Shown: positions 6,608 through 55,800 of the stretch, piece by piece
Numbering within the stretch: position 1 is the stretch's first letter
Layout of the letters: each line of letters starts with the position of its first letter
Origin: Verrucomicrobiota bacterium
GTDB lineage: Bacteria; Verrucomicrobiota; Verrucomicrobiia; Chthoniobacterales; Terrimicrobiaceae
DNA: 64,000 bases
Direction of reading: 5' to 3'
Assembly (NCBI GenBank): GCA_026398255.1
Contig: JAPLTG010000015.1
Span: forward strand, 1 to 64,000
The notes under the pieces: model-generated
What the model was told of the DNA's origin: nothing
Seen by the model: only the letters and a program-made list of their open reading frames with translations
Databases searched by the model: none
Position numbers and translations under genes: made by a program

Positions 6608-9600
6608 GTGAAAACAAAATCCCCGATGCCCCCATTCAGACTCCTTTTTTTAGCATGCCTTTTTGTGCTCGCAGCAACCCAGGCGGGCTTCTGCGGGTCG
6701 AGTGCTGACGACGCCCGGGAGCGAGTTCGACTCTCCGAGGATTGGGCTTTTCACCTCGGTGAGGCGCCTGGTGCGGAGGTGCCGGGGTTTGACGATTCCA
6801 AGTGGCGGAAACTGGATGTGCCACACGACTGGAGCATCGAGCAGCCCTACGATCCCAAGATGCCCGGGGGCTCGTCTGTCGGCTACCTTCCTGGCGGCAT
6901 CGGTTGGTATCGCAAATCGTTCACGCTTCCCGAATCGGACAAGGGCAAGGAAATCGCCATCGATTTTGACGGTGTCTATATGGACAGCCAAGTATGGATC
7001 AATGGGCACCTGCTGGGTAAGCGCCCGAATGGATATGTGGGTTTCCGCTACGACCTCACGCCCTACCTGAAATACGGCAGCGAGAAAAACCACATTGCCG
7101 TCCGTGCCAATGTCGAACCGAGTGGCAGCCGCTGGTATCCGGGGGCCGGCATCTATCGGAATGTCTGGCTCGTGAAAATGAACCCGATCCATGTCGCGCA
7201 TTGGGGCACGGCGGTGACGAAGCCGGAGGTTACGAAGGAAAAGGCCACTGTCCGCCTGCGCACGGAGGTGGAAAACAAATCCGCCGAGGCCTCGGAGGTG
7301 AAGCTCACTTCTGTGATTCTCGACCAAAAAGGCAACGAGGTGGCCAAGGCGGAATCCAAGCAACGCATCGCGGCGGGCGGGATGCAGGAATTTGACCAGC
7401 AATTTGTCGTCGCCAATCCCCTCCTCTGGTCCCCTGACTCTCCTGATCTGTATCAAGTGGTGTCCACAGTCCAGGCGGGCGGCAAGACTCTGGATCAATA
7501 CACGACGCCACTGGGCATCCGGACTTGCGAATTCACAGCCGACCGGGGGTTTTTGCTGAACGGGGAACGCGTCGATATCAAAGGCGTTTGTATGCACCAC
7601 GACTTCGGCGCGCTCGGGACCGCCATTTCCGACCGGGCCTTGGAGCGTCAACTTGAAATCCTGCGCGAGATGGGCTGCAACGCCATCCGCACGAGTCACA
7701 ATCCGCGCGAGCCGGAATTCTATGCGATGTGCGACCGCATGGGCTTCATGGTCATGAATGAGGCCTTCGATGTCTGGGAACAGAAAAAACTCGGCAATGA
7801 CTACCATAAGTATTTCAAGGAGTGGCATGAGCGGGATTTGACCAGCATGGTCCGCCGCGACCGCAATCATCCCTGCGTGATCCTCTGGAGTGTGGGAAAT
7901 GAAGTCAATGAACAGCACAAACAGGATTTTCCCGGCCAACGACCCCAGCCGTGCGGCCACGGCGGCCTGCAATTCTCCAGAGGCCTGCGAGAAAAATGGC
8001 ATCACGGCCGCGCTGGATGTCTATGGCCAAAATTACGCCCTCGAAACCTTCGAAAAATACAAAGGCAAAAAACCCCTCATCGGCTCGGAGAATGCAACCA
8101 ACTTCACGACGCGGGATAGTTATTCTTATGAGATCGTGAAAGATAAGGGCCTCACAATGGCATTCCAGAACATTAAGAATAACAGCGAATGCACCGGATA
8201 CGGGAGATTCTGGGGAAATGATCGCACGGATCACACCCTCATGACGCTGAGAAAATCGCCGTGGGTCGCAGGTCAATTTGCTTGGACCGGGTTTGATTAT
8301 CTTGGCGAGTGTTTCCCTTTTCACTGGCCTGTCCGCAATGGCTTGTTTGGCATCATCGATCTGGCCGGATTTCCCAAGGACTCTTACTATATCTACCAAG
8401 CGGATTGGACGGATGAGCCTTCCATTCATATCATTCCGCAAAGCTGGAACTTCTCCCAATACTTTCTCGCGCCGATTCCTGTTTGGGTCTACAGCAACTG
8501 CGAGGAAGTGGAGTTGTTTGTGAACAACCGCTCCCTTGGGGTAAAAAAAATAAACCGCAGCGAGACACTTCATGCGGAGTGGCTTGTGAAATATGAAGCC
8601 GGCGAGTTGAAGGCGGTGGGCAGAACCAATGGCCAGATCGTATGCACGGACATCGTGCGAACCTCAGGCGAGCCGGCGGGGCTCGAAGTGCTCGCTGACC
8701 GAACTGAAATCGCTGCAGACGGCACGGATCTGAGCTTTCTGGAAGTCCGCTTGGTGGACAAAAATGGCGTGACCTGTCGAGACTCGGATCGGGCGATTCG
8801 CGTTACCATCGAAGGCGCCGGCACGTTGGCAGGCATTGACAATGGGAGCGCCAGCAACCACTCGCCTTTCAAGGGAAACCAGGTCGAAACATGTTACGGT
8901 CGCGCACTGGTGATTCTGAAATCGACAAAGAAGGCAGGTGCTATGCAAGTGAAGATATCCGCCGACGGGGTGAAAGCCGCCACGGCAACGATTGCGACGC
9001 TTTCCCCCGAAGACGCACGCCTCGCCGAGGTGGCGATGAATCGTGATAAGGCTCGTAGGGACAGGAATAAAAAAAACAGCCGTCACCACTTGGCAAAGAT
9101 CGCGAAGGTTCCACAGGTGGAGAATTTGGTTTCCGGAAAAACAGCGACAGCCTCCTCATTCAACGGCGGCAGTGGCGTGCTCACCGTGGCTCCGGTTTTC
9201 AAGCACGGTCTTGGCCAACACGCGGACTCGGTGGTCGCCTCGCGGAGTAAAAAGCCCCCGACATGGTCCGAAATGGATGCTCGCCGCGTCATTGTCGACG
9301 AGGCCAAGCGCCAAGGAGTTACATTTATCCTGGATGGCAAGCTACCAATAGTTGAAGGCATCCGCTCGTCCCGCGACGGCAAAGCCTCTTCCGAGGATGC
9401 GACTTCAGCCCCACCCGGCCCCCTTGTGTTCGATGGCGTGGATCAAACGGGAAAGATCGTCTTTGAGATCCTCACCAGCGAGGATGTCCCCGACCGGACG
9501 GATAATACAGACCGCATCACCGACTTCCTTGCTGCGGCACAAAAGCTTGCTGAGGAACTGAAAACAAAGTCCGGCGACTATGTAGCCGGAGTTTTCTATG

Positions 9601-9698
9601 ACCCTTTGACAGCAAAAGGAACCGTTGCGGATGAAGAACCCCTCCGAGCGCAGGTGCGAGACTTCATTGCATGGCTCAAGAAGGAAAAAAAATCTTAA
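6608..9698 (+). pseudogene. GH2 beta-galactosidase-like gene, frameshifted
   Basis: Two overlapping frames together make one GH2 enzyme. 6608-about 7935 encodes a signal peptide (FRLLFLACLFVLAATQA), the sugar-binding domain (VPHDWSIE, VWINGHLLG), the immunoglobulin-like domain and the barrel up to the acid/base motif SVGNEVNEQ (E432). From about 7925 a +1 frame continues with NDPSRAATAACNSPEA, DVYGQNY and the nucleophile motif IGSENATN, then C-terminal beta domains and a roughly 180-residue tail I do not recognise (9110-9698). At the switch the homologous text lacks about 15 residues normally found between acid/base and DPSR, so this is probably a deletion plus frameshift. The start is GTG at 6608; ATG at 6626 is an alternative. 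A sequencing error cannot be excluded, since both halves keep conserved motifs. Confidence 0.8.
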
Positions 9699-11447: not shown

Positions 11448-14300
11448 ATGAAATACATTGCCCTGATTGGATGTGCTGCATTGCATCTTACTACCGCATT
11501 TGTCCTCTCCGCTGATACCATCGCACAGGGTGCTGAGACTGGAAAAGAGAGGCCCGATGGCAAATACAATGTCGTATGGACCTCCCCCAGCAAGGACTAC
11601 AACGGTTCCATGCCGATTGGGAATGGGGATCTGGCAGCGAATGTGTGGGTCGAGCCAACCGGAGATCTGATATTCTATCTATCAAAAAGCGACGCCTGGA
11701 CCGGTGGCCGGCCGGATCCCGAATTGGTGAAGCTGGGGCGGGTTCGAGTCCGTCTCGACAAGCCGCTTTTTCAAGAAGGCGCGACCTTCCGTCAGGAACT
11801 GGATTTAAAGACCGGAAGCATCACTATTGACTCGTCGGCTGGTGATTTGAAACGCTCGATCCGCTTCTGGATCGATGCAAATCGCCCAGTGGTTCATGTG
11901 GATATCGAAAGCTCGGTTCCCTGCTCCGCTGAGATCGCCCTGGAAAGCTGGCGAGCGGATGGACAATGGCTCCATGGTGGAGCGGAAAAAGATGTCATCC
12001 TGCCTTCGGATGGGCAAACAGTCCGATGGTATCAACGGAATGTGCATAGCGTCTTTGCCGATTCTTTCAAATTTCAGCATCTGGGAGATATTGTGGATCA
12101 GTTTACCGATCCGCTCATGAATCGCACTTTCGGTGGCCTGATTTCTGGCGAAGGTCTGAAGTCCAAAGATAATAAAACGCTCGTGACTTCGGCGCCCGCG
12201 AAGGAGATCGCCGTCAGTATCCATGCGCTCACGGCTCAAACAAAAACGCCCGAGGATTGGTTGGCACAACTCGAGCAACAGAGAAAGACGGTGGAAGCTT
12301 TTCCAAAGGGAGAGGCTTGGCCGGCTCATCTGAAATGGTGGCAGGATTTTTGGCAGAGAAGTTGGATCTATGTCACGCCCGGGCAGGAGCCCTCAAAAAA
12401 TGCGGTGACGAGTTTGATTCCTGCCAATGCGTTGAACTTTCGTTTCGGTGTTAGCAGCAAAGGGGGAGAGAAATTTCAGGGCCAGTTGGGACGAGCGAGT
12501 CTATTGAACCGCGCCTTGACCGAGGCCGAAATTAAAGAACTCGCTGGCAGCCAATCCTTGCCCGCTGGATTAAAAAAAGAGGACATCCTTTTCAGTTCCA
12601 CGCCCGAGCTTTATTCCGAGATCAAAGATTCCTCCGCGTGGACAGATGCCCCGGCGATGACCTTTGAGGCTTGGATCAAACCGGACGCGGTCGCCGCGAG
12701 TGCGAGGATTCTCGACAAAACAATGCCCGGTAGCGATGAGGGTTTTCTGCTCGACACCTGCCCAGGCAATGGATTGCGCCTGATTGCAGGCAAAAATAAC
12801 TTCGTTGTTCCGAATTGTTTGAAGGCGGGCGAATGGAGCCATGTCGCTGTGGCCGTAGATGCCAGTCAGCAGAGAATGGAAGTTTATCTCAATGGCAAAC
12901 GGGTGGCTGGTAGTAAGGAAAAAATCAGCGTTTCAGATGAGGCCTTTGAGGTGAGTCGGGCCTATCAACTCCAGCGCTGGGTCCAGGCCTGTGCCGGACG
13001 AGGCGCCTACCCCATTAAGTTCAACGGATCCCTTTTTACGGTAGATGGCATGGATAATTACCAGAATGTTCCGGAGGGATCATATGCTGGCCCTGACCAC
13101 CGTCGCTGGGGCGGACCTTACTGGTGGCAGAACACCCGGTTAATTTATTGGCCGATGCTGTATTCCGGCGATTACGACCAGATGGCTCCGCTTTTCACCA
13201 TGTATCGAAATATGCTGCCTCTTCTTAAAGAGCGAACACGCCGCTATTTTGGCCATGATGGGGTAAACTTCTCAGAGACCTCGCAGATGTGGGGTCTCAA
13301 TCGCAGACAGGATTTTGGCATGGGTAAAGAAAACCCGGATGTCTATTCGAAGTGTCCTTATACGAGGTATTACTGGGATGGCGGGCTGGAGATGTCCACC
13401 ATGTTGCTGGCCTATTATCTCAATACCCAAGATGAGGCTTTCGTAAAAGAGACGCTGCTGCCCATTGCGGATCAGGTGGTGATCTTCTATGACCAGCATT
13501 ACAAACGCACTCAAGATGGCAAATTGCATATCTCGCCTTCGCAGGTGCTGGAAACCTGGCATACGGCAGAGGATCCGATTACTGTCCTCGCCGGTCTCCG
13601 AACCGTGCTAGGCGGACTGCTGAAATTGCCCGATTCGTTGACTACAGCTGAACAGAGAGAGCGCTGGCAGCGATTTCTCGGCGAGGTGAAGGAACTTCCC
13701 ATCGCAGAGGAAGCTGGCAAGAAATGGTTAAAGCCAGCCTATGTATTCTCCGATCGCAAAAACTGTGAAAACCCCACGCTTTATGCGATCTTCCCCTACC
13801 CGATCTATGGTGTCGGGAAACCCGATCTGGAGATCGGTCGGGAATCCTTTGCGCGGCGCGATAACAAGCGCACGGGTGGTTGGCAGCAGGATTCGATCCA
13901 GGCCGCCCTGCTCGGTCTGACCGAGCAGGCGAAGACCTATCTCGTCCAGGCTGTCACCACAGAGAACCTCATGGGCAGCGCCAATGAAAAAGCGAACCGC
14001 CCGGATAGCCGCTTCCCGGCCTTCTGGGGCCCGAATTTCGACTGGATACCCGACCAGTGCCAAGCTTCCGTGATCCTCAATACGCTTCAATACATGCTCA
14101 TGCAGACCGATGGCAAAAAAATCAATCTGCTTCCGGCGTGGCCTAAAGACTGGAATGCCAACTTCAAGCTCCACGCGCCTTACAAAACCACCCTCGAAGG
14201 CCGTGTGGTCAACGGGGCGCTGGTGGATTTGAAAGTCACGCCCCAAACGCGCGCCAAGGATATTGTGAATGTCATGACCGCAGAGGGATCGGGGAAATAA
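11448..14300 (+). CDS. DUF5703 / GH95-like glycosidase with inserted LamG module
   Basis: A 950-residue exported protein. After a signal peptide comes a DUF5703 N-terminal beta domain (YNVVWTSPSKDYNGSMPIGN, GDLAANVWVEPTGDLIFYLS), then an (alpha/alpha)6 barrel resembling GH95 alpha-L-fucosidases (FEVSRAYQLQRWVQACAGRG, YPIKFNGSLFT, RLIYWPML) and a C-terminal beta domain (IYGVGKPDLEIG, INLLPAWPKDWN). Relative to the paralog at 29130, it carries about 180 extra residues (roughly 316-498; bases 12393-12941) between SWIYVTPG and the barrel. The insert contains LamG strands in reversed order. DUF5703 proteins are usually treated as glycosidases by fold; the substrate is unknown. It lies 8 bp upstream of the next GH2 gene, consistent with co-transcription. 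Confidence 0.8.
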   Translation: MKYIALIGCAALHLTTAFVLSADTIAQGAETGKERPDGKYNVVWTSPSKDYNGSMPIGNGDLAANVWVEPTGDLIFYLSKSDAWTGGRPDPELVKLGRVRVRLDKPLFQEGATFRQELDLKTGSITIDSSAGDLKRSIRFWIDANRPVVHVDIESSVPCSAEIALESWRADGQWLHGGAEKDVILPSDGQTVRWYQRNVHSVFADSFKFQHLGDIVDQFTDPLMNRTFGGLISGEGLKSKDNKTLVTSAPAKEIAVSIHALTAQTKTPEDWLAQLEQQRKTVEAFPKGEAWPAHLKWWQDFWQRSWIYVTPGQEPSKNAVTSLIPANALNFRFGVSSKGGEKFQGQLGRASLLNRALTEAEIKELAGSQSLPAGLKKEDILFSSTPELYSEIKDSSAWTDAPAMTFEAWIKPDAVAASARILDKTMPGSDEGFLLDTCPGNGLRLIAGKNNFVVPNCLKAGEWSHVAVAVDASQQRMEVYLNGKRVAGSKEKISVSDEAFEVSRAYQLQRWVQACAGRGAYPIKFNGSLFTVDGMDNYQNVPEGSYAGPDHRRWGGPYWWQNTRLIYWPMLYSGDYDQMAPLFTMYRNMLPLLKERTRRYFGHDGVNFSETSQMWGLNRRQDFGMGKENPDVYSKCPYTRYYWDGGLEMSTMLLAYYLNTQDEAFVKETLLPIADQVVIFYDQHYKRTQDGKLHISPSQVLETWHTAEDPITVLAGLRTVLGGLLKLPDSLTTAEQRERWQRFLGEVKELPIAEEAGKKWLKPAYVFSDRKNCENPTLYAIFPYPIYGVGKPDLEIGRESFARRDNKRTGGWQQDSIQAALLGLTEQAKTYLVQAVTTENLMGSANEKANRPDSRFPAFWGPNFDWIPDQCQASVILNTLQYMLMQTDGKKINLLPAWPKDWNANFKLHAPYKTTLEGRVVNGALVDLKVTPQTRAKDIVNVMTAEGSGK

Positions 14301-29129: not shown

Positions 29130-31394
29130 ATGATCAAACGACTTCCCCTCCTATTACTCCTTGGCTGCATTCATCCCATGGCTGCGCTGCAGGCGGGGGG
29201 TGACGGACTCCCGGAAAAATACAATGTCGTATGGGACTCGCCCAGCAAGGATTACAATGGCTCCATGCCGATTGGAAATGGCGATATCGGGGCTAATGTG
29301 TGGGTGGAACCGACTGGTGATTTGATTTTCTATCTCTCGAAAACCGACGCGTGGAGCGGCGGCGGTCCAGATCCGGAATTGCTGAAACTCGGGAGGTTTC
29401 GAGTGCGCCTCGACAAACCGCTTTTCCAAGAAGGCGCGAGCTTCCGTCAGGAACTGGATTTAAAGGCGTCCGTCGGCGAAATGAAACGCTCGATTCGCTT
29501 TTGGATTGATGCGAATCGCCCTGTGGTTCATTTGGATATCCAAAGTTCCCCACCCTGCACGGCCGAGATCGCCCTGGAAAGTTGGCGGGCCGAGGGCAAA
29601 TACCTTCGAGGGGGTTCCCAAAAGGACATCATCCTGCCAGCGGATGGACAGACGGTGCGGTGGTATCAGCGAAATGTTCACAGCATTTTCAAAGATAACA
29701 TGAAAAACCAGCACATGGGCGATGTCGTGGATCAATTTCCTGATCCGCTGATCCATCGCACCTTCGGCGGCGTGATTTCCGGCAAAGGGTTGAAGTCGAA
29801 AGACGATAAAACGCTCGCGACCGCGGCTCCCATGGAGCGGATCGAAATACAAATCCATCCCCTGACCGCTCAAACGAAAACAGCAGATGAGTGGCTGCTC
29901 CAACTCGAGGAACAACGAAAAACGGGGAATGCTACACCGATAGGCGAGGCTTGGTCGGCCCATGTGAAATGGTGGCAGAGCTTCTGGCAGAGAAGTTGGA
30001 TCGATGTCACGCCATCTGCCGAAACCGGCCAAAACAATTTGAACGAAGCTTTTGAAGTCAGCCAAGCCTACACGCTGCAACGCTGGATTCAGGCCTGCGC
30101 AGGTCGTGGTGCCTACCCCATCAAATTTAATGGCTCCTTGTTTACAGTCGATGCAGTGGATGCGTTCTGGAAATTTCCTGAAGGCCAGTATGCCGGTCCC
30201 GACTACATGCGCTGGGGTGGTCCCTACTGGTTCCAGAACACGCGCTTGATTTACTGGCCGATGTTGGCTTCCGGGGATTACGACCAGATGGCGCCGCTCT
30301 TTACGATGTATCGCAACATGCTGCCGTTGTTGAAGGAACGGGCGCGCCGCTATTTCGGACACGACGGGGTGCACTTTTCCGAGACGACTGAGATTTGGGG
30401 ACTCAATCGGGATGTTTGTTTTGGCAAAGATAATCCGGGTTTCTATCCGACCAGCACTTACATGAAGTATAACTGGGATTGCGGGTTGGAACTCTCGACC
30501 ATGCTTCTGGCATATTACCAGCATACGCAGGACCAAGCCTTCGTTGGCGAAACTCTTCTGCCCATCGCGGATCAGGTCGTCACCTTTTATGAGCAGCACT
30601 ATCAACGCGACAAGGATGGGAAGCTGCATATTTATCCTTCCCAAGCTCTTGAAACTTGGCAAAACACCGAAAATCCCACCACCGTTCTTGCAGGCATGCG
30701 TGTTGTTTTGGCGGGACTGCTGGCATTGCCCGAGTCCTTGACGACGAGCGAGCAGCGCAAGCGCTGGACACGCGTGCTCGGGGAGATGAAAGAAGTTCCT
30801 ATTGCCGAAGAGGGTGGCAAGAAATGGATCAAGCCGGCCCATGTTTTTTCCGACAAAAAAAACGCGGAACATCCGGAATTGTATGCGGTCTTCCCATATC
30901 CGATCTATGGTGTTGGGAAGCCGGATTTGGAGATCGGTCTGGAAACCTACAAGCGCCGCGAGAACAAGCGCACGGGCGGATGGCAGCAGGACGCCATCCA
31001 GGCCGCGTTACTTGGACAAAGCGCGGATGCTAAGTTTTTTATGCTTCAGAATATCACCATGGAAAACCTCATGGGCGGGGACAACGAGAAAGCGAAACGC
31101 CCGGATAGCCGCTTCCCCGCTTTCTGGGGCCCAAACTTCGATTGGATTCCCGACCAGTGCAATGGCTCAGTGATCCTCTCCACGCTGCAATACATGCTCA
31201 TGCAGACGGACGGGAAGAAAATCATCCTGCTTCCGGCTTGGCCAAAGGAGTGGAACGCCTCTTTCAAACTCCACGCTCCCTACCAAACAACTGTCGAAGG
31301 GCGTGTGGAAAATGGAAAAGTGGTGGATTTAAAGGTCACTCCAGAATCCCGTATCAAAGACATCGTAAATGCCGAAAATTTAAAACCTCAATAA
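29130..31394 (+). CDS. DUF5703 / GH95-like glycosidase, paralog without LamG insert
   Basis: 754 residues from ATG 29130, chosen because it begins the signal peptide (MIKRLPLLLLLGCIHPMAAL); the longer frame from 28986 overlaps the previous gene. The DUF5703 N-terminal domain (YNVVWDSPSKDYNGSMPIGN, DIGANVWVEPTGDLIFYLS) and GH95-like barrel (RWIQACAGRGAYPIKFNGS, MLLAYYQHTQDQAF, IYPSQALETW) are closely related to 11448-14300. It shows the uninterrupted form of the fold: SWIDVTPS is followed within about 10 residues by AFEVSQAYTLQRW. Its TAA stop falls inside the first units of a 9-bp tandem repeat that forms the whole spacer to the next gene. Confidence 0.82.
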   Translation: MIKRLPLLLLLGCIHPMAALQAGGDGLPEKYNVVWDSPSKDYNGSMPIGNGDIGANVWVEPTGDLIFYLSKTDAWSGGGPDPELLKLGRFRVRLDKPLFQEGASFRQELDLKASVGEMKRSIRFWIDANRPVVHLDIQSSPPCTAEIALESWRAEGKYLRGGSQKDIILPADGQTVRWYQRNVHSIFKDNMKNQHMGDVVDQFPDPLIHRTFGGVISGKGLKSKDDKTLATAAPMERIEIQIHPLTAQTKTADEWLLQLEEQRKTGNATPIGEAWSAHVKWWQSFWQRSWIDVTPSAETGQNNLNEAFEVSQAYTLQRWIQACAGRGAYPIKFNGSLFTVDAVDAFWKFPEGQYAGPDYMRWGGPYWFQNTRLIYWPMLASGDYDQMAPLFTMYRNMLPLLKERARRYFGHDGVHFSETTEIWGLNRDVCFGKDNPGFYPTSTYMKYNWDCGLELSTMLLAYYQHTQDQAFVGETLLPIADQVVTFYEQHYQRDKDGKLHIYPSQALETWQNTENPTTVLAGMRVVLAGLLALPESLTTSEQRKRWTRVLGEMKEVPIAEEGGKKWIKPAHVFSDKKNAEHPELYAVFPYPIYGVGKPDLEIGLETYKRRENKRTGGWQQDAIQAALLGQSADAKFFMLQNITMENLMGGDNEKAKRPDSRFPAFWGPNFDWIPDQCNGSVILSTLQYMLMQTDGKKIILLPAWPKEWNASFKLHAPYQTTVEGRVENGKVVDLKVTPESRIKDIVNAENLKPQ

Positions 31395-38978: not shown

Positions 38979-41051
38979 ATGAAAACATACTTGCCACTCG
39001 TTGGATATTTCGCATTGGTCGTGAGCTTCTTGCCTGCCGCATTCGCAGAAAAGCCCAAGGCGCCTGTCACATTCGACTACCCCGATCAGCGCTCCCCTGG
39101 CCGCGCGAAAGCCATCGTCCAGGGAAATACCCGCACGCTGCAAAATGACCTCGTGTCGTTTCAGTTTGATGTCACCGAGGGTCGAGTGGCGAACGCTCGC
39201 TTCGACATCCTAGGCGAAGCGGGGGCCAGCGTGGTCGTGGATGAACCGTTTTCCTTGGTCGTGGATGGCAAGCCGATCAACGCCTCGGCGTTGAAACTCG
39301 ATCCGCAAATTCCGGAAGAGACGACTCCTGCAAACACGACCTCGCCACGACTGGGCGATCATGATGCAGCCAAGTCGTTTGCCCTGACCTATACCGCGCC
39401 GGACGATTCGTATCGCGTGGTGTGGAAACCCATTCTTCGGGATGGTTCGAACTACATTCTCTTCGATGTCACGATCACTCCGTTGCGCGGGGATTTGAAT
39501 CTGAACCGCTTGGTCATGCTGGATGTGACCGCCAAGAATTTGAAGCAACTCGGCACTCCGGCCGGGAGTCCGGTGGCGAACGAGCGCTTTTTCTTCGGAT
39601 TTCACCATCCGACAGCTCGGCCACTCATCGCTGGGGAAAAACTGACCTTTTACTGGGACCGCGCTAATATGGCGGTGAAACAAGGCGAGACGGTTCATCA
39701 ACGCGCCGCCATCGGCATTTACCCGAAAGACCAGCGCCGCCGAGCCTTCAACTACTATCTGGAGCGCGAGCGCTCGCATTCCTATCATCAAGTCCTGCAC
39801 TACAATGCGTGGTATGACATCCTGCATACCGAACGCACGAAGAAAGCAGATGAAGCCGAAGCTCTTGAGCGAATCCAGAGATTCCACAACGAATTGAGCG
39901 TCAAGCGCGGTCTGCCCGTGGAGTTATTTATGTTCGACGATCCTTGGGACAATGTGTCCGGCACGGCCACGGATGTCTGGCAGTTCGACCCCAAGCGTAA
40001 CCCAAACGAGTGGAGAGTCATGAAAGAGGTCGCAGAAAAGCATGGCGCAAAATTGGGTGTTTGGATGTCACCCCAAGGCGGTTGGGGCGGACGGCAGGTC
40101 CGATTTGCAACGGCGAGGCAAAACAATTTGCCCTATGCGATTAAAGACTTGGCCTTCAGCTTGTCCGATCCGCCCTACCTCGCACGGTTCCGGGAGGTGT
40201 GTTTTGATTTCCTGCGCAATCAAGGCGTCACCATGTTCAAATTCGACGGCTTCAACGAGAACCCAAAAAATGAATCCGAACGCGAGGCGCTGGTGCAACT
40301 GATCGAAGACATGCGCAAAGAAAAGCCGGATGTCTTCATCAACACCACTTGCGGCGCGTGGCCCAGTCCGTTTTTCCTCATGAACTCGGATTCGATTTGG
40401 CGTGGCGGTGGCGACATCGAAATGAAAGGCGTCGGGCCTGTGCGCGAGCAAGCGATCAATTATCGCGACTGGACTACTTACATGAAGGTCGTCTTCCAAA
40501 GCCCGCTTTTCCCAGTTTCCTCGGTGATGGTGATGGGGCCCGTGCTTGCACCGTATGTGCACCATGAAGGATTCGATACCGCCACCCTCCAAGAGTGGAA
40601 AAATGAAGTGCGTTCCTACTTTGGCCTCGGGGTGAACCTGCAGGAACTCTACATCGGTCCGACGAATCCGGACACTGGCAAACCTCTGATGACCGATGAG
40701 CTTTGGGACATCGTAGCCGAAGGCGCCAGGTGGGCGCGCACGAACGAAGATGTCTTGGTCGATGCCCATTGGGTGGGCGGCGATCCAGGCAAAGGACAAG
40801 TCTATGGCGTGGCGGCGTGGAATCCTAAAAAAGCCACCCTCATGCTGCGCAATCCCTCCGACAAACCCCAGTCGATCGATATCGAACCGATCACGGCCTT
40901 CGAGGTGCCGCCGCATCAAAAAACCGAGTCCTTCACCATGAAAAGCCCGTGGGCGGATGAAGCGGATCAACCCGCCGTGACGCTCACGGCAGGAAAAGCC
41001 CACACTTTTCAACTCGAGCCATTTCAAGTCATCGTCTTAGAGCGCAAATGA
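38979..41051 (+). CDS. Clan GH-D-like alpha-galactosidase (GH36/GH27-type), copy 1
   Basis: 690-residue exported protein: leader, N-terminal beta-supersandwich ([17 protein letters not shown]), TIM barrel and C-terminal beta domain ([16 protein letters not shown]). Barrel strand motifs [28 protein letters not shown] and [11 protein letters not shown] match GH36/GH27 alpha-galactosidases. D423 in KFDGF is the nucleophile candidate, and an Asp in [11 protein letters not shown] is the acid/base candidate. Relatives in Verrucomicrobia and Planctomycetes are often mislabelled enterotoxin. Nearly the same protein recurs at 44648-46720. The last codon overlaps the ATG of the SGNH-GH95 gene (ATGA), so the pair is translationally coupled and probably works together. 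Confidence 0.75.
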
Positions 41052-43993
41052 AGCTTCTTTTTTCGGCGCTCTCCCTTCTCTGGATTGCATCGGCCCAGGC
41101 CCTGCCGATCAAGGTGGCCTGCGTTGGCGACAGCGTTGCTTTTGGAACGGGGATTCCCGATCGCGAAACAAACAGCTACCCCGCCCAGCTTCAGAAAATT
41201 TTGGGCCAGAGATTTGAAGTGAGGAACTTTGCCTCCGAGAATGCGAGCATCAGCCCAGATCCTCCCGCGCCTTACATCGAAACTCCGCAATACAAAGAGG
41301 CGTTGAAATTTCTCCCAAATGTTGTCCTGATCCATCTGGGCACCTACGACACGCTGCCACAGCCGTGGTCACAAAGCTGGAAATTTGGCATCGCCTACCA
41401 GGAAATGATATCCCAATTCCGGGCGCTGCCGAGCAAGCCCGTGATCTGGGTGCTCAAACCCGTGCCAGCTTTTAAAAGTGCGGACAGGGGGATCAACGCC
41501 ACGATCCTCGAAGAGGAAATCCTCCCCCTCATTGAAGGCATTGCCGCCAAGGCCAAGGCCCCGGTCATTGACCTGCATACGCCTTTCCGCAAGCGCCCCG
41601 AGCTTTTTCCGGATGGCATTCTCCCCAATGCGGATGGAGCCGCAGAGATAGCAAAAATCATCGCCCCTCAGCTGGAGAAATACCGCGACCAGGCACCGCC
41701 GCCGCCAGCCCGTGTGAGCTATCCCCCGGCGCAAAATGGCGTGATCTGGGACGATGCGGCCGCCACTTTCTGGGAGGACGCCTACCCTGTCGGCAATGGT
41801 CGCTTGGGGGCCATGCCTTTCGGGGCTTTTCCTACGGAACGCATCCTCCTCAACGAGGAGACGATCTGGGCCAACCACACGCAGATGTATGAAGAGGAAA
41901 ACGCCTTCCCGCACCTTGAGAAAATCCGCGAACTGGAGGCAGCGGGCGACTACAAGGGCGCTGACGAGTATTTCAAGGAGCATCTTTCCAACAAAGGCAG
42001 CCCTCCGAAAAGCCCCTACAGCTACCAACCCGCAGGCTGGCTGAAACTTCACTATCTCAATACTGCCGAGCTTGTTTCGACCCATCGCGCCCTTGATATC
42101 CGAACCGGAATCGCGACTTCCATCTACAAACTGAGCGATGGCAATACCATCACTCAGGAAGTCTTTGCCTCCAGCCCAGATGATGTGGTCGTCATCTCGA
42201 TCAAGTCCACCAAACCCATTGATCTCACGGTAGGCATAAATGGAGCGACACTCCAAGGCGGAGACCTTGTGCTTGAGGGAAAAGCGGATGGAGTCCTCGG
42301 GACAAAATTCACCAACCGCCTTCGCGCCTCCCTTCCGCCGTCAGGCCCATCGAAAAATCCCGGCGCTCTTGAGTTCAAGCAAATGAGCGAGATCACATTC
42401 CAGCTCGCCATTGCGACCGATTTCAATCGCCAAGACTCCGCCCAACCACTCCCCGAGGGCTGGCAGTCCAAGACGGCCGCCACCTTGGAGAAACTCAAGG
42501 ACAAGCCGCTGGCCAAGATCCAAGCCGACGCCATTGCCGATCTCCAGAAATACTTGAACCGCGTTCAATTCGATATCGGGAAGACGAGTGTTGACATCCT
42601 TTCCCTGCCCACCAAGGACCGGCTCCAGCGCATCAAAGAAGGCCACCACGACGATCCGGACCTCATGGAGACCTACTTCCAGTTCGGTCGCTACCTGCTC
42701 ATCGCCTCCTCCCGGCCCGGCTGCCTACCGGCCAACTTGCAAGGCAAGTGGAATCCCTACGCAAGACCACCATGGGCCTCGGACTACCATCTGAACATCA
42801 ACATCCAGATGAATTACTGGCTGGCGGAGACCTGCAACCTCGCCGAGCTTCATCAGCCCTTCTTCGAACTCATGCGCCTATATCAACCGAGCGGGAAAGA
42901 TCTCGCTCGGCGTCTTGGAATGAAAGGCTGGTGCATGGGCCACTCGACCGATGTGTGGGGCAATGCCCGCTCGATGGGGGTTTTTCCCATGTGGGCGGCG
43001 ACCTATTTGGGTGGGCAATGGATGGCTTTTCACATCCTGGAGCACTACCAGTTTAATCGCGATCCCCAGTTTCTCCGGGACCACTGGGACATCCTCACCG
43101 CCTCCACCGAATTTTGTGAATCCTACCTCATTCCCGGCCCGGACGGCACGCTCATGGCCCGCCCTGCGTCTTCACCCGAGAACACATTTTTTTATACAGA
43201 CCAGAACGGCGTGAAACAGAGAGCCGCGTTGAGCGCGGGAACGACAGTCGAGCAGTTCATGATCCTTCAAGTCTTCAAAGATTACATCGAAGCCGCCGAG
43301 GTGTTGGGCAAAATGGACGATCCCCTCGTGAAACGCGTCCAAGAGCTTCTACCCAAAATCTATCGCCCAAAAGTGGCGAGCGACGGACGCCTCATGGAGT
43401 GGCGCCTGCCGTTTGAAGAAGTCCATCGTGGCCACCGCCACATCTCGCATGTCATCGGAGCCTATCCGGGCAATGTCATCAACCTCGACACCGACCCCAC
43501 CATGCGTGACGCAGTGATCAAGGCCGTCGAAGGCCGCTTGGCCCACGGCGGCGCTGGCACAGGCTGGAGCCGGGCTTGGACGATCGGCATGTTCGCGCGG
43601 TTCTCGGACGGTGAAAAAGCCTATGAAAACTTCCACGCGATCCTCGCCAAATCCACCCTCGACAACCTCTGGGATTGGCACCCGCCGTTTCAAATCGACG
43701 GCAACTTCGGCGCGACCGCCGCCCTCGCGGAAATGCTCCTCCACAGCCACAATGGAGAGATCAAGCTCCTCCCCGCCCTGCCTTCAAAATGGAGGGATGG
43801 CTCGATCAAGGGCCTACGTGCCCGTGGCGATTACACGGTCGACATCACTTGGGCCGCTGGCGAACTCACCGAGGCAATCATCCGCGCCGGATACAGAAGC
43901 CCAAGCGACATTCGGGTGGTCTATAAAAACAAACCCCAAACGCTAAAGATCCAGCCAGGCAAGTCAGTGACTCTGACGCCGAAGGAATTTTAA
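41048..43993 (+). CDS. SGNH-like/GH95 fusion: alpha-L-fucosidase or L-galactosidase, copy 1
   Basis: 981 residues. Leader, then an SGNH-hydrolase fold (20-215), then GH95 (about 225-981). GH95 motifs: [29 protein letters not shown], the asparagine-rich [28 protein letters not shown] and [18 protein letters not shown], with the conserved Asp at about 884. GH95 enzymes are inverting alpha-1,2-L-fucosidases or alpha-L-galactosidases, and this half looks intact. The SGNH half is not: Ser29 is kept in GDSV, but block II Gly is gone (FASENAS), block III Asn is Tyr (GTYDT) and the catalytic His is Leu192 (DGILPN). The front half is probably a non-catalytic or binding domain. It is coupled to the upstream GH-D gene and duplicated at 46717. 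Confidence 0.85.
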
Positions 43994-44647: not shown

Positions 44648-46720
44648 ATGAAAACATTTTTACCACTCTTGGGATATTTAGCTCTGGGCATGAGCTTTTT
44701 ACCTGTTGCGCTCGCATCAAAATCCAAGGCGCCTGTCACATTCGACTACCCGGATCAGCGCCTTCCCGGCATCGCGAAAGCGACCGTTAAAGGAAATACC
44801 CGCACGCTGCAAAATGACCTCGTGTCGTTCCAGTTTGATGTCACCGAGGGGCGAGTAACGAATGCGCGCTTCGACATCCCCGGCGAAGCGGGGGCCAGCG
44901 TGCTCGTCGACGAACCGTTTTCCTTGATTGTGGACGGCAAGCCGGTCAATGCGTCGGCTTTGAAACTAGATGCGCAAATCCCGGAAGAGACGACTCCCGC
45001 AGACACGACCTCGCCCCGACTGGGTGATCATGATGTGGCCAAGTCGTTTGCCCTGACCTATACCGCGCCGGACGATTCGTATCGCGTGGTCTGGAAGCCC
45101 ATTCTCCGGGATGGTTCAAACTACATTCTGTTCGATGTCACGATCACTCCGTTGCGCGGGGATTTAAACTTGAACCGCTTGGTCATGCTGGATGTGACCG
45201 CCAAGAACCTGAAGCAACTCGGCACTCCGGCCGGGAGTCCGGTGGCGAACGAGCGCTTTTTCTTCGGATTTCACCATCCGACAGCCCGGCCACTCATCTC
45301 TGGGGAAAAACTGACCTTTTACTGGGACCGAGCCAATATGGCGGTCAAGCAAGGCGAGACGGTGCACCAACGCGCCGCCATCGGCATTTATCCGCAAGAC
45401 CAGCGCCGCCGAGCCTTCAACTACTATCTGGAGCGCGAGCGCTCGCATTCCTATCATCAAGTCCTGCACTACAATGCGTGGTATGACATCCTGCATACCG
45501 CACGCACGAAGAAAGCGGATGAGGCCGAGGCCATTGAGCGAATCAAGACCTTCCACAACGAATTGAGTGTCAAGCGCGGCGTGCCCGTAGAGTTGTTTAT
45601 GTTCGACGATCCGTGGGACAATGTATCCGGCACGGCCACAGATGTCTGGCAGTTCGACCCCAAGCGCAATCCCAACGAGTGGAAAGTGATGAAAGAAGTC
45701 GCCGAAAAGCATGGCGGCTCGCTGGGGGTCTGGATGTCACCCCAAGGCGGTTGGGGCGGACGGCAGGTCCGTTTTGCAACGGCCAAGCAAAATAACCTGC
45801 CTTATGTGGTTAAGGACTTGGCCTTCAGCTTGTCCGACCCGCCTTATCTCGCGCGGTTCCGGGATGTGTGCTTCGACTTCCTTCGCAATCAAGGCGTCTC
45901 AATGTTCAAATTCGACGGTTTCAACGAGAAACCTGAAAATGAATCTGAACGCGAGGCGCTGGTGAAATTGATCGAGGACATGCGCAAGGAGAAGCCGGAT
46001 GTCTTCATCAACACGACCTGCGGCTCCTGGCCCAGCCCGTTTTTCCTCATGAACTCCGACTCGATCTGTCGGGGTGGCGGCGACATCGAACTGAAAGGCG
46101 CGGGCCCCGTGCGTGAACAAGCGATCAATTACCGCGACTGGATCACCTACACGGGGGTCGTTTTAAAAAGCCCGCTTTTCCCGGTCTCATCGGTGATGCT
46201 CCATGGTATCGTGCTTGCGCCCTATGTGCATCACCAGGGATTTGATACCGCAACCATCCAAGAGTGGAAAAATGAAGTGCGATCTTACTTTGGCCTCGGG
46301 GTGAACCTGCAGGAACTCTACATCGGCCCGACGAATCCGGACACTGGCAAACCACTCATGACCGATGAGCTTTGGGACATCGTAGCCGAAGGCGCCAAGT
46401 GGGCGCGCGCGAACGAAGATGTCTTGGTCGATGCCCATTGGGTGGGCGGTGACCCCGGCAAGGGACAAGTCTACGGCGTGGCGGCGTGGAATCCTAAAAA
46501 AGCCACCCTCATGCTGCGCAATCCCTCCGACAAACCCCAGTCGATCAATATCGAACCGATCACGGCTTTTGAAGTGCCTCAACATCAAAAAACCGAGTCC
46601 TTCACCATGAAAAGCCCATGGGCGGATGAGGCGGATCAACCCGCCGTGACGCTCACGGCAGGAAAAGCCCACACTTTCCAACTCGAGCCATTCCAAGTCA
46701 TCGTTTTAGAACGTAAATGA
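44648..46720 (+). CDS. Clan GH-D-like alpha-galactosidase (GH36/GH27-type), copy 2
   Basis: 690 residues, exactly the length of copy 1 and by eye about nine-tenths identical, with the same barrel motifs ([32 protein letters not shown]). Candidate catalytic Asp residues are kept. One notable change near the acid/base region is NSDSICRGGGD where copy 1 has [11 protein letters not shown], and [13 protein letters not shown] replaces [13 protein letters not shown]. Both changes fall in loops likely to line the active site, so the copies may differ in specificity. As in copy 1, the stop overlaps the start of an SGNH-GH95 gene (ATGA). Confidence 0.75.
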   Translation: MKTFLPLLGYLALGMSFLPVALASKSKAPVTFDYPDQRLPGIAKATVKGNTRTLQNDLVSFQFDVTEGRVTNARFDIPGEAGASVLVDEPFSLIVDGKPVNASALKLDAQIPEETTPADTTSPRLGDHDVAKSFALTYTAPDDSYRVVWKPILRDGSNYILFDVTITPLRGDLNLNRLVMLDVTAKNLKQLGTPAGSPVANERFFFGFHHPTARPLISGEKLTFYWDRANMAVKQGETVHQRAAIGIYPQDQRRRAFNYYLERERSHSYHQVLHYNAWYDILHTARTKKADEAEAIERIKTFHNELSVKRGVPVELFMFDDPWDNVSGTATDVWQFDPKRNPNEWKVMKEVAEKHGGSLGVWMSPQGGWGGRQVRFATAKQNNLPYVVKDLAFSLSDPPYLARFRDVCFDFLRNQGVSMFKFDGFNEKPENESEREALVKLIEDMRKEKPDVFINTTCGSWPSPFFLMNSDSICRGGGDIELKGAGPVREQAINYRDWITYTGVVLKSPLFPVSSVMLHGIVLAPYVHHQGFDTATIQEWKNEVRSYFGLGVNLQELYIGPTNPDTGKPLMTDELWDIVAEGAKWARANEDVLVDAHWVGGDPGKGQVYGVAAWNPKKATLMLRNPSDKPQSINIEPITAFEVPQHQKTESFTMKSPWADEADQPAVTLTAGKAHTFQLEPFQVIVLERK

Positions 46721-49686
46721 AAACCACCATCATAGCACTCGCGCTTTTTTGCGCCTCCTCAGCCGTAGCCCAGCCCATCAAGGTCGCCTGCGTCGGAGAT
46801 AGCATCACCTTAGGAGTCGGAATTCCTAGTCCGGAAACAAACAGCTACCCCGCCCAACTTCAAAAAATGCTGGGTGAGGAATTTGAGGTGAAGAACTTCG
46901 GAGCCAAGGATGCGACCCTCATTCCGGATTCCCCAGCAGCCTACTTCAAAAGTCCAGAGTTCCAACAGGCCAAGCAATTTCTGCCCGATGTGGTGATCAT
47001 TAATCTGGGCACCTATGACGCCAACCCCGGGTTTCAACAATGGAAATTCAGTAGAACCTACCATGATATGATCCAGCAGTTTCGTAGCCTGCCAAGCAAA
47101 CCGGTGATCTGGATCGTCAAACCCGTAACCACTTTTATCACCGAGGAGAAGGGCATCAACGGCTTAATAATTGAAGAGGAGATTCTTCTCCGTATCGACG
47201 GGATTGGAATCAAAGCCGGGGCTCCCGTGATAGACCTCCATGCTCCTTTCCTCGATCGTGCCGAGCTTTTCCCCGATAAAATTCTCCCGAACGCAGAGGG
47301 CGCCCGGGAGATCGCGAAGATCATCGCGCCATGGCTTCAGAAATACCGTGACCAAGCACCGCCCCCGCCTTCTCGTGTGAGTTATCCGCCGGCTGATAAC
47401 GAGGTGATCTGGGATGATGCTTGCGCCTCACACTGGGAAGATGCTTATCCGATTGGTAATGGACGGTTGGGAGCGATGAACTTTGCCACCTTCCCCAAGG
47501 AGCGCATCCTGCTCAATGAGGAGACCATTTGGGCAAACACGGGCAAAATGCATGAGGAGGAAAACGCGTTTCCGCTCTTCGAGAAAATCCGTGAACTCGA
47601 GGCAGCGGGTGACTACAAGGGCGCGGACGACTATTTTATGGAGCATATTTCCCGCAAGGGCAGCTCCTCTAAAAACCCCCAACTTTATCAACTCGCGGGC
47701 TGGCTAAATCTCCATTATCAGAATACCGCTAAAATCGTTTCGACCCATCGTGCCCTTGATCTGCGCACGGGTATCGCAACCTCGACTTATACGCTGAGCG
47801 ATAATTCGACAATCTCACAGGAGATGTTTGTGTCGGCCCCTGATGATGTCATCGTCGTCTCCATTCGATCTGATAAACCCTTTGATATCATGGCCACCAT
47901 GGACGGCGCTCAAATCGAGGGCGGCGATCTGGTTTTGACCGGGAAGGCGGACGGTGCCCTCGGAACGAAATTTCAAAATCGTCTTCGCGCGTCCCTCGCC
48001 CCGTCAGGCCCATCGAAAAATCCCGGCGCTCTTGAGTTCAAGCAAATGAGCGAGATCACATTCCAACTCGCCATTGCGACCGATTTTAATCGCCAAGACT
48101 CCGCCCAACCCCTCGCCGAGGGCTGGCAGGCCAAGACAACCAGCACACTCGAAAAGCTCAAGACCAAGCCGCTCAGCCAGATCATGGCGGACGCCATTGC
48201 CGATCATCAGAAATACTACAACCGCGTCCATTTTGACTTGGGGAAGACGAGCGACGAACTCCTCGCAAAACCAACCAAAGACCGCCTCAAGCGCCTGCAA
48301 GAGGGCAGCCATGACGACCCCGATCTCATGGAAACCTACTACCAATTCGGCCGCTACCTCCTGATCGCCTCTTCTCGTCCGGGCTGCCTCCCGGCGAACC
48401 TGCAGGGTATTTGGAATGCTCATAGACAGCCGCCATGGTCCTCGGACTATCACCTCAATATCAACATCCAGATGAATTACTGGCTGGCAGAGACCTGCAA
48501 CCTCGCCGAGCTTCATCAGCCCTTCTTCGACCTCATGCGCATGTATCAACCGAGCGGGAAAGATCTCGCCCGTCGTATGGGAATGAAAGGCTGGGCCATG
48601 GGGCACTCGACCGATGTGTGGGGCAGTGCCCGCTCGATGGGAATTCAACCGATGTGGGCAGCCACCTATCTGGGCGGGCAGTGGATGGCCTTTCACATCC
48701 TCGAGCATTATCGTTTCAATCGTGATCCGAAAATTCTCTCGGATAACTGGGACATCCTCACTGCCTCCACCGAGTTCTGTGAATCTTATCTGATTCCCGG
48801 TCCGGACGGCACCCTCATGGCCCGTCCCGCATCTTCACCCGAAAACGAGTTTTTCTACATCGATAAAAACGGAGTCAAACAGAAAGCCGCCCTCAGCGCA
48901 GGAACGACGGTCGAGCAGTTCCTGATTCTTCAAGTCTTCAACGACTACCTTGAAGCCGCCGAGGTCCTCGGAAAAATGGACGATCCCCTCGTGAAACGCG
49001 TCCAAGAACTTCTACCAAAAATCTACCGCCCGAAAGTGGCCGCCGACGGACGCCTTATGGAGTGGCGCTTGCCCTTCGAAGAAACCAGTCCCGGCCACCG
49101 TCACATATCGCATGTCATCGGAGCCTATCCGGGCAATGTCATCGATCTCGACGACGACCCCGTTATGCGCTCTGCCGTGATTAAATCCATCGAGGGCCGC
49201 ATGGCCAGAGGCGGAGCTGGCACAGGATGGAGCCGCGCTTGGACGATCGGCATGTATGCTCGCTTCTCCGATGGGGAAAGTGCTTATGAAAACTTCCACG
49301 CGATCCTCGCCAAATCGACCCTCGATAATTTATGGGACACCTGCGATCCTTTTCAGATCGACGGCAATTTCGGCGCGACCGCCGCCCTCGCGGAAATGCT
49401 CCTCCACAGCCACAATGGCGAAATCAAACTCCTCCCCGCCGTCCCTTCCAGATGGAAAAATATTTCGGTCAAAGGCCTCCGCGCTCGTGGCGATTGCACG
49501 GTCGATATCACTCGCGTCGACGGCGAACTCGCCACGGCAACGATCCACGCCGGAAAACAAAGCTCGGGCGAAATCCGAGTCGTGTATCAGAACAAATCCA
49601 AATTGCTCCAGATCACGCCAGGCAAGTCGGCAACCCTCACACCAAAAGATTGGGACGCTGAGAACAGCAAGGTTGAGATTCGGTAG
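46717..49686 (+). CDS. SGNH-like/GH95 fusion: alpha-L-fucosidase or L-galactosidase, copy 2
   Basis: 989 residues with the same plan as 41048: leader, SGNH fold and GH95. GH95 motifs are intact ([52 protein letters not shown] with Asp at about 882). The SGNH half shows the same losses as copy 1: Ser29 in GDSITLG remains, but block II reads FGAKDAT, block III GTYDAN has Tyr for Asn, and DKILPN has Leu190 in place of His. Conservation of the loss in both copies implies it predates the duplication. The N-terminal half is more diverged between copies than the GH95 half (the [20 protein letters not shown] region is identical). Confidence 0.85.
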   Translation: MKTTIIALALFCASSAVAQPIKVACVGDSITLGVGIPSPETNSYPAQLQKMLGEEFEVKNFGAKDATLIPDSPAAYFKSPEFQQAKQFLPDVVIINLGTYDANPGFQQWKFSRTYHDMIQQFRSLPSKPVIWIVKPVTTFITEEKGINGLIIEEEILLRIDGIGIKAGAPVIDLHAPFLDRAELFPDKILPNAEGAREIAKIIAPWLQKYRDQAPPPPSRVSYPPADNEVIWDDACASHWEDAYPIGNGRLGAMNFATFPKERILLNEETIWANTGKMHEEENAFPLFEKIRELEAAGDYKGADDYFMEHISRKGSSSKNPQLYQLAGWLNLHYQNTAKIVSTHRALDLRTGIATSTYTLSDNSTISQEMFVSAPDDVIVVSIRSDKPFDIMATMDGAQIEGGDLVLTGKADGALGTKFQNRLRASLAPSGPSKNPGALEFKQMSEITFQLAIATDFNRQDSAQPLAEGWQAKTTSTLEKLKTKPLSQIMADAIADHQKYYNRVHFDLGKTSDELLAKPTKDRLKRLQEGSHDDPDLMETYYQFGRYLLIASSRPGCLPANLQGIWNAHRQPPWSSDYHLNINIQMNYWLAETCNLAELHQPFFDLMRMYQPSGKDLARRMGMKGWAMGHSTDVWGSARSMGIQPMWAATYLGGQWMAFHILEHYRFNRDPKILSDNWDILTASTEFCESYLIPGPDGTLMARPASSPENEFFYIDKNGVKQKAALSAGTTVEQFLILQVFNDYLEAAEVLGKMDDPLVKRVQELLPKIYRPKVAADGRLMEWRLPFEETSPGHRHISHVIGAYPGNVIDLDDDPVMRSAVIKSIEGRMARGGAGTGWSRAWTIGMYARFSDGESAYENFHAILAKSTLDNLWDTCDPFQIDGNFGATAALAEMLLHSHNGEIKLLPAVPSRWKNISVKGLRARGDCTVDITRVDGELATATIHAGKQSSGEIRVVYQNKSKLLQITPGKSATLTPKDWDAENSKVEIR

Positions 49687-52884: not shown

Positions 52885-55800
52885 ATGGATTTTAGATACA
52901 TAAAGAGGTTTTTAAAAAACAGCCAAGCCACCTCTGGCAGCGCTCTCATTCTCGTTCTGCTCATCACCTCCCTTCTCGCCACCATAGCCGTCTCCTTCCT
53001 CTCCACCTCCCGCGTGGAGCAGATCGCCGCCAAGAATTTCTCCCGTCAAAACGCCGCCTCCGGCCTCGCCGAAATGGCCACCCAGCAAGCCATGGGCAAA
53101 GTCCAGCAGGGCTTCACTGTAAACGGCACCGGCACGACCGTCATCACCACCCAACCGGGCGCGATCACCCAGTTTGTATTTACTAACGGCAATATTACAT
53201 CCCCCGCGCCAGTCATTACAGGTAATGCCACAACCTATCCGCCTACAGCCACGCTCTTCTCTGGCAGTGGGAATGTGACCACCAATGGAACAGCTAATCT
53301 AAACAACCTCCAAAATCCCTCATCCAACTCCAGCGCTACCACCAATCAATTCACCATCACGGGTAATCGCACTGAGCTGATCCTCGTTCCCATGGAAAAT
53401 ATCACAAGCAACGGCACCGTTATTGGCCGCGTCGCCTACTATGTCGATGACGAAGGAACCAAACTCAATGCCAACAGCGCCACTGGAAATAGGACTGCCT
53501 TAAACGCTGGAAACCGCCCTCAGGACATCGCTGCACTCGTGAGCAGTGCTGCAAGTAGCTTTTCTAACATCATAAACAGCTCTTCTTCAAATACAAGTAG
53601 CATTACAGGATGGAGTCATTTCTTTCGTCCCGAGCAGGTGGGCGCGGCCGTCAGTGGTATTTCAGGCAACCATACCCCTTTCATTTCTACAGCCACCCCA
53701 TCCGCCAGCACCACGGCAAACATGTCCCACCTACTCACGCCCTGGGGAACGCAAAGGCTTTATATCAATGCCCTCTCCACAAACGCCATCGACGGCACCG
53801 GAGATGCCTCTGTGAACACAATCCACGCTGCACTCACAAACTCCACGCTTACGGCGATATTCGGAAGTGATTTCGCGGCTAAATATACCTCCACCGGCGT
53901 GAAGCAGATCGCCGCGAATATGCTCCAGATGCGCGATCCAAACACCGCTACGGTTAACGCCAGTTTTAGCTACCAAGGCCCACTCATCGGGTCGAGAACT
54001 CTAAATGCCTCCACCTACATTCCGCAGGAATATTTGGGATTTGCTCCATATCCCATTGTTAGCGAAGTTAGTATAGATGTTACTTATGGAAATGGCCCGC
54101 CATATCTTAGACCTTTTTTGCGCGTGAATGTGGAACTATATAATCCCTATCCTATTGCATTCAATGCTCCAAATGCCACCCTTGAATACTTTATACGAGG
54201 CCTGACATGGAATATGACTCACACTATTAATTCAACTGGTCAAACATATGGCCCTTACAGATATGGAGGCTATGGCAATTGGACAGATACAACAACATCC
54301 CCAGAGTATGGCTTGCGAAGCGATCTAAGAGATCCTAAAAAACCAAATACTCAATTTAGTGAAACTGGTAGCATTCATCACAACCCATACGGAACTATGG
54401 GAATAATAATTCCAGCATATTCCAAAGTGAAATATAATATGGCAGGCCCGGCTTGGGGAACATATGGCCAAGCGCTAACTACCTCTGTTTTTCCATTTGA
54501 TCAAAATGATATAGTTATTAATTCTATTACAGATGTTAGATGCACTATTACCTACATAAAAATTACTGCGAATAGCACTATAGTTGGCGGCTTGTTTGGT
54601 GCAAGCAACATAAATCCTAACACCATTAGAGATTGGGTCTCCGGAGCAGATGTTGGCCCTTTCATTCCAAATAATGGAAGCCTGAGCATGGTTGGCGGGT
54701 TTAATTATGTCAACTCGCAAAATATAAGCTTTCCTGTTAATACACCGATAACATTTCCGCGAGGTGCCAACTGGTTTGATTGTATATTTAATGCCGACAA
54801 CATATCCAAATACTCATACCAGAGGCTTTGCCCGTTGATAAAAACCTCCATGGCGGCTTCTTCAAATCTTACTGCAAGCACCAGATCCTGGACGATTAAT
54901 GCCAGCACTGCGAATCAGACTTTTAACAATGTTACTTCAGCCTCAGGCATAACCACCGCAAACCAGACAGAGCAATTCAACGATGCCAATGCCAACCCAA
55001 GCTACGATTCAGGAAATACGATCCCAAGCGACCCCTCCTTCAATAACTATAACGGAAATGCCATTTACGCCGATGCAACCTTGTCGAATGGGACACTAAC
55101 CAACACCACCGACATGCGAATTCCGGAACTGCCCAGTTTCTCCGGAAATTACTTTTACACATCCCCTTCAGACTTGGGCCTCGTGCCTACCAATCAGCGT
55201 TGGCGCCGCCTCCGGATGCAAATGCAGCCCAGCTCCGAGGGTTCAATGATCCCCGATTGGGCCATGCTGGATGTGATCTCTTTCGGCAACTCGACAGACC
55301 CCAATAGCGCCTTAAACCGCATGACTCCTGTTAACATCAATGGCAGGTTTTACTTGCCCGGAAATATAACAAACAGTTCTCCCCCAGCCCCACGCACAAT
55401 CGGCATCAGTGCCTTGGCACAAGTTTTATCATTATCTGGCAACAGCAGCATTCAGAACCCCGTTGCCCCCACTTCTTCCGCATACTCGCTAACAAGCAAC
55501 GAGACACTGCGATTCAAAGGAAATTCTACAAGCTCTGCGAATATCACTGCCCTAGCCAACAACATTGGCAACATGACATGGTCTGCAAATTCTACTTGGG
55601 GAAAAGGAAACTCCACAAATGACCCCAGCAGCCGCAGAAAAACAAATAAATTTCCAGTCAACCAATACATCCTCCCATCCGAAATTATGGAAATTTCCGG
55701 GGTCGCCGATGCCGTCACACCGAACTACACCAGCACCAGCACTCACTTCAAAACGAACGAAGGCCGCGCCAGCGCCCTCATTCCCGCCGTCACCACCCGC

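Follow-up and report, generated by a model that had tools for sequence, protein, structure and literature searches.

To our knowledge, natural circular permutants have mostly been described as isolated pairs. Concanavalin A is a naturally permuted jelly roll. The 1,3-1,4-beta-glucanase of Fibrobacter succinogenes is another naturally permuted jelly roll, according to the literature cited in PMC2213659. For the enzyme studied here, the closest described systems are the two GH139 proteins of solved structure, the 2-O-methyl-alpha-L-fucosidase BT0984 (9hyq) and its homolog SDT91673.1 (9hmb), and neither of them carries the insert described below. In BT0984, Asn412 is the proposed base and Glu561 the proposed acid, and the subsite residues are Gln411, Asn639, Glu641, Trp683 and Phe378 (PMC12282258). 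The C-terminal sheet of the GH139 structures takes in a strand located between helices 2 and 3, and helix 3 itself is situated between N-terminal domain and barrel.

The gene that we analysed lies in a stretch of 64,000 nucleotides of a Verrucomicrobiota genome, called here the window. Its open reading frame is intact and encodes 950 amino acids in a single open frame with no stops. Pfam analysis of the protein identified DUF5703_N at residues 43-307 and Laminin_G_3 in two stretches, and the GH95 catalytic profile gave only a partial match (551-706, E 2.5e-9). An NCBIfam scan of the gene and of the insert gave no match. The features of the gene are the following:

11448 to 14300, + strand: GH139-type glycoside hydrolase gene with insert (ORF, Pfam, model and structure match)
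11574 to 12368, + strand: DUF5703_N (PF18961), N-terminal beta domain with leading helices (E 9.9e-72)
12348 to 12374, + strand: anchor FWQRSWIYV (residues 301-309), expected from the GH139 structures to correspond to beta17 in the C-terminal sheet
12375 to 12962, + strand: whole insert, residues 310-505 (196 amino acids), between the anchors FWQRSWIYV and YQLQRWVQ (506-513)
12423 to 12542, + strand: LamG tail block T (ALNFRFGVSSKGGEKFQG...LLNRALTEAEIKEL), placed first (Laminin_G_3 profile 108-151)
12633 to 12929, + strand: LamG head block H (MTFEAWIKPD...ILDKTMPG...LLDTCPGNGLRLI...GEWSHVAV...VYLNGKRV), placed second (Laminin_G_3 profile ~11-110)
12963 to 13037, + strand: post-insert host helix (YQLQRWVQ...) and loop PIKFNGSLF, with F525 aligned to F378 of BT0984 (-1 subsite)
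13128 to 13133, + strand: Q561-N562, aligned to Q411-N412 of BT0984 (N412 is the proposed catalytic base)
13551 to 13553, + strand: E702, aligned to E561 of BT0984 (proposed catalytic acid)
13881 to 13883, + strand: W812, aligned to W683 of BT0984 (stacks on the -1 sugar)

A full-length AlphaFold2 model built with 81 relatives reached a mean pLDDT of 89.6, and the insert is confident there too. The best PDB match of this model is a GH139 protein, 9hmb (E 3.7e-63), followed by 9hyq. The GH139 architecture of DUF5703_N, (alpha/alpha)6 barrel and C-terminal beta domain is present in the protein, which shares both fold and domain order with BT0984 and SDT91673.1. In the alignment to BT0984, residues Q561, N562, E702, N772, E774, W812 and F525 correspond to Q411, N412, E561, N639, E641, W683 and F378, and the residue aligned with D723 is also conserved. 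The Asn pair of the GH95 -1 subsite (AfcA N421, N423) has no counterpart, and Q561-N562 stand there as in GH139. Alignment and model thus indicate that the host is a GH139-type inverting glycosidase. The original prediction had called it a DUF5703/GH95-like enzyme; DUF5703_N is indeed there, but the structure match suggests that GH139 is the better name. By this alignment the GH139 catalytic machinery is kept, including the catalytic acid that SDT91673.1 lacks, and 2-O-methyl-alpha-L-fucosidase activity is only putative. Part of the Trp triad seems to be absent from the window protein, so that its substrate may differ.

In relatives that are free of the insert, the linker at this site is usually about 9-25 amino acids long. 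Comparison with the GH139 structures indicates that the insert takes the place of the loop connecting the strand FWxRSWI to the helix that leads into the catalytic barrel, in agreement with the insertion into a loop proposed before. Since the loop with F525 comes after the helix YQLQRWVQ, the insert would lie about one helix from the pocket. The large size first estimated for the insert (about 180 residues) holds, the measured length being 196; the linker of a paralog in the window has 20 residues and not about 10. The LamG does lie inside the insert, with its LamG-like part spanning approximately residues 326-494 instead of 316-498.

The original prediction had also read this segment as a LamG module with reversed halves, that is, a circular permutant. 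When its parts were scanned apart, the first matched Laminin_G_3 (PF13385) positions 108-151 (E 2.8e-4) and the second positions 11-107 (E 1.6e-14), so the tail precedes the head and the canonical order of the Laminin_G_3 parts is not found. Re-ordered in silico to the canonical order, the insert gave one continuous match over positions 11-151 with 74 bits; re-ordered sequences were used only in this profile scan and in domain alignments. Two separate, complementary and non-overlapping profile pieces in reverse order are not due to chance. The Laminin_G_3 score is 68.3 bits for the whole protein and 72 for the insert, against a curated cut-off of 27.6, and 41 of 48 inserts match PF13385 at E <= 0.001. 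The window insert covers the profile except for the first edge strand, which L012 and other long forms do have.

Structure prediction points in the same direction. Modelled alone with AlphaFold2, together with 47 other inserts in the alignment, the insert forms a single compact domain (pLDDT 90.8, pTM 0.86) whose core is all beta and in which EIKELA forms a short helix, a predicted single concanavalin A-like beta sandwich; neither unrelated partial domains nor a LamG in canonical order were seen. A Foldseek search of the PDB placed pentraxins and the LamG-like carbohydrate-binding protein 4dqa on top. The fit to pentraxins is about 10 A rmsd over ~170 forced columns and 2.5-2.7 A over ~93. VIA-align gave Z scores of 7.3-9.2 against CBM40, PTX3, laminin LG and neurexin LNS, middling values for a common fold, and its matches are nearly always limited to model residues 58-184, the head part. 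Both programs are sequential aligners, and strand connectivity was taken from the sequence and DSSP. A second part that superposes and a first part that cannot be placed in sequence are consistent with what is expected of a permutant. Matches to the fold of clostridial neurotoxin binding domains were given no weight, as they reflect the common jelly roll. We therefore consider, with a probability of roughly 0.86, that the segment is a single, complete Laminin_G_3 domain that has undergone natural circular permutation and sits within a loop of a GH139 enzyme. Its new termini lie between the strands LYxNGxxVA and LPLRIG, and the linker that follows the helix EIKELA connects the old ones.

To see how common such inserts are, as the original prediction had proposed, GH139 junctions were collected from 387 genomes of the window's phylum by a whole-protein scan and a PF18961 survey. 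Among 159 distinct junctions, 62 have inserts of at least 100 residues, 90 have 25 residues or fewer and 7 fall between. One search pattern of the whole-protein scan lay within the insert, which biased that scan towards inserts; the PF18961 survey alone (74 resolved junctions) gave 22 inserts, 48 short junctions and 4 between, and permuted inserts are thus common. Over all loci, every GH139 insert with both blocks identified is tail-first (67/67) and none is canonical, and these 67 span Verrucomicrobiota, Planctomycetota and Armatimonadota. The recurrence of the permuted domain in dozens of related enzymes from several phyla indicates an inherited natural permutation and not a sequencing oddity. 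In the long forms (L010-L024) the tail is followed by the usual first strand, G-L-x-x-D-W, and then by the head; the window insert is a shortened form relative to them. Three inserts (L032, L044 and L045) resemble products of later deletion, and in L044 and L045 only remnants such as NARPLRIGADSDQPLGG are left. In one family of the phylum (L152-L164), the GH139 inserts are strongly diverged, with a reduced tail helix and a barely recognisable tail motif; decay or a new use of the module is possible.

The same LamG subfamily was also found on other hosts. The long-insert profile A2 was run on the 387 genomes of the window's phylum, on 148 of the class with the Victivallales genome G389, and on 343 Planctomycetota (phylum of L010) and 201 Armatimonadota (phylum of L012) genomes. 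Permuted copies occur at the extreme C-terminus of GH95-like enzymes, with the stop directly after (L199, L293, L276), at the N-terminus of a GH95 enzyme (L295), about 100 residues from the end of a Pfam-less host (L294, L268 and others), and in two PA14-bearing proteins (L200 and L235; PA14 by Pfam in L235 and by resemblance in L200). The Pfam-less host family (L294, 743-3397; L268, L240, L272-L275, L278) has about 880-1000 residues and a C-terminal tail after the permuted LamG; in the L294 host Pfam matches only the LamG, and a PDB search gave nothing useful. Tail-to-head candidates L188, L193, L194, L196, L198, L201, L202, L209 and L211-L217 were discarded as tandem canonical LamG arrays.

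By sequence, the closest non-permuted relatives are the N-terminal LamG domains of GH95 proteins L171-L178 and L281-L288, a GH95 assignment made by Pfam for L171 and L175. These domains start soon after an apparent signal peptide and read head, tail and then a GDWxF strand. They share the motif RIxDK...LLDTxPGNSLR with the permuted inserts, but they are head-tail with the W strand after the tail, and they are N-terminal and not inserted. Domains in fully canonical order (W, head, tail) are found at GH95 C-termini (L285, L289, L290, L292) and before DUF5703 cores (L279, L280). Since permuted GH139/GH95, H-T-W and W-H-T loci were all found, these sequences indicate that the blocks W, H and T occur naturally in every one of their three rotations (W-H-T, H-T-W and T-W-H) within one subfamily.

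The window holds a second GH139 gene, which bears on the history of the insert:

29130 to 31394, + strand: paralogous GH139 gene without insert (Pfam, tree)
30009 to 30068, + strand: paralog linker of 20 residues (TPSAETGQNNLNEAFEVSQA), with NLNEAFEVSQA in common with the insert-bearing L003; read as a deletion scar

In the core tree this paralog is sister to L003 (core amino-acid identity 0.93, dS 0.38), and AAAA runs are found at both presumed deletion ends of the paralog/L003 junction. Because L003 is its sister, NLNEAFEVSQA is kept and AAAA runs flank the site, deletion is the best reading, and the paralog most likely lost its insert. The initial idea that the window gene had gained the insert relative to the paralog was dropped, as the core tree is against it. 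On a tree of 157 GH139 cores the insert label needs 24 changes, at least 14-15 of them forced by well supported branches. Distances of insert and core are correlated (Mantel r 0.77), which favours old common inheritance with many losses; as the two trees mostly agree, independent gains from different donors were rejected as the main cause of the patchiness. The trees are in conflict for L022 and L189. In L022 (1540-6673), an adjacent GH139 pair has one member with the permuted insert and one without, and the two are close sisters by core. Between the window gene and L001, identity reaches 93-99% at residues 192-291 and 512-890 and is 65-82% in the insert and at both ends, a mosaic that we read as the mark of gene conversion tracts ending near the insert. 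Estimates of dN/dS, which are rough with some dS near or above saturation, are about 0.05-0.11 for the core and mostly 0.1-0.25 for the insert, so that the insert is under purifying selection, yet evolves faster than the core.

Other observations were made along the window. A GH2 enzyme is split over the overlapping frames 6608-8119 (N-terminal part and part of the TIM barrel) and 7890-9698 (DUF4982 and C5 domains) on the + strand, which suggests a frameshift or pseudogene. A two-gene block occurs twice on the + strand (38979-43993 and 44648-49686), consisting of a Pfam-less ORF of 690 amino acids followed by a GDSL esterase-GH95 fusion. An ORF of 1028 amino acids with no Pfam match (52885-55971, + strand) lies within the glycan-degradation cluster.

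In a tree of the head block, the GH139 inserts and L199 form one group (93/84), next to the GH95 N-terminal LamG (89/52) and apart from generic LamG; the insert L120 falls outside it on a long branch. The simplest reading, not a proven one, is a single permutation followed by spread of the module and repeated loss. The permuted module would have a single origin, probably in a tandem duplication whose outer halves were trimmed away, would then have been built into the GH139 loop, and may have been repeatedly lost or exchanged through recombination. Several independent permutations in the LamG subfamily, a rival on this history only, are possible but less probable. Trees of the re-ordered full domain (~150 columns, backbone not fixed) require at least 5 changes of the order label with 100 rows and 3 with 72 rows, and the existence of three different block orders would also fit repeated permutation; however, a tree that unites all permuted forms in one clade is not rejected (p-AU 0.42), and the break point is common to the tail-first forms.

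As to function, the insert would serve as an accessory module for glycan binding (CBM-like), attached through two connections where the domains of the enzyme meet and mounted one helix upstream of the loop forming the -1 subsite. By hypothesis, the permutation would serve loop orientation, setting the facing of the module's loops relative to the host. The sugar-binding fold matches of the insert include CBM40 and 5hon, domain 4 of the arabinanase AbnA with arabinotriose. The neighbourhood is rich in enzymes for fucose/rhamnose glycans (GH78, GH106, two GDSL-GH95 fusions, two GH139, GH43-CBM6 and a fucose/arabinose isomerase-like gene). Because LamG-type fold matches bind sugars and the neighbours are of this kind, accessory glycan binding, rather than bracing, is probably the role of the insert. 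A purely structural role, in which the permuted LamG binds no sugar and braces the seam of N-terminal domain, barrel and C-terminal domain or shields the surface, is a possible but less probable explanation. Its position at the seam, as seen by comparison with GH139 structures, its faster evolution and its frequent loss or shortening with the catalytic core retained (L032, L044, L045 and the diverged L152-L164) would agree with bracing, but the motif RILDK...GFLLDTYPGNSLRLI of the loop is conserved across different hosts in permuted and non-permuted members alike, pointing to a shared local function, and many LamG-type relatives bind glycans.

It is very improbable that the segment consists of two unrelated partial LamG pieces, the decaying remnant of a tandem pair with no working domain. 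Tandem canonical LamG arrays do read tail-to-head at their junctions, and truncation would yield such an order, but the pieces found here are complementary and non-overlapping, are predicted with high confidence to fold together, keep their order over 67 genes of several phyla, and are under purifying selection. An assembly or annotation artefact, such as a chimeric gene or misjoined contig, can be dismissed: the source is a draft genome of 44 contigs, but independent metagenome assemblies (e.g. L001, L002, L003 and L005) have the same insert in the same place, and the reading frame is uninterrupted.

The permuted domain reading has consequences for annotation and for the study of permutation. 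Profile searches catch only part of permuted domains, so that such LamG inserts are under-annotated and GH139-type genes seem to contain a partial LamG match. The insert also provides an accessory module that can be put to the test in the fucosidase-type enzymes of Verrucomicrobiota, Planctomycetota and Armatimonadota. In this LamG subfamily three rotations occur on homologous enzymes, and the permuted form is widespread, internal and gained or lost between close relatives, which provides a natural series in which to study the origin and the purpose of permutation. A tentative generalization is that the subfamily circulates among GH95/GH139-type glycosidases as natural permutants, rotation perhaps being kept as an evolvable docking choice that mounts the same ligand-binding face at the N-terminus, at the C-terminus or in an internal loop in the orientation needed.

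In the open-access literature we found no report of a permuted LamG or of an insert in GH139, and the main text of the BT0984 paper (PMC12282258) mentions neither laminin nor an insertion. A permuted LamG inside GH139 thus seems to be undescribed, while permutation of the concanavalin A-like fold is already known. With the LamG-like jelly rolls of PF13385 and the pentraxin and laminin-LG/LNS folds, the insert shares both profile halves and the fold matches; in the PDB relatives 4qvs and 8sl1 the head comes before the tail, whereas in the window insert they are swapped. The F. succinogenes glucanase and concanavalin A share with the insert a permutation within the concanavalin A-like fold, but they are whole-chain catalytic and seed-lectin proteins, whereas the insert is a module inside a host enzyme and belongs to a subfamily with several block orders.
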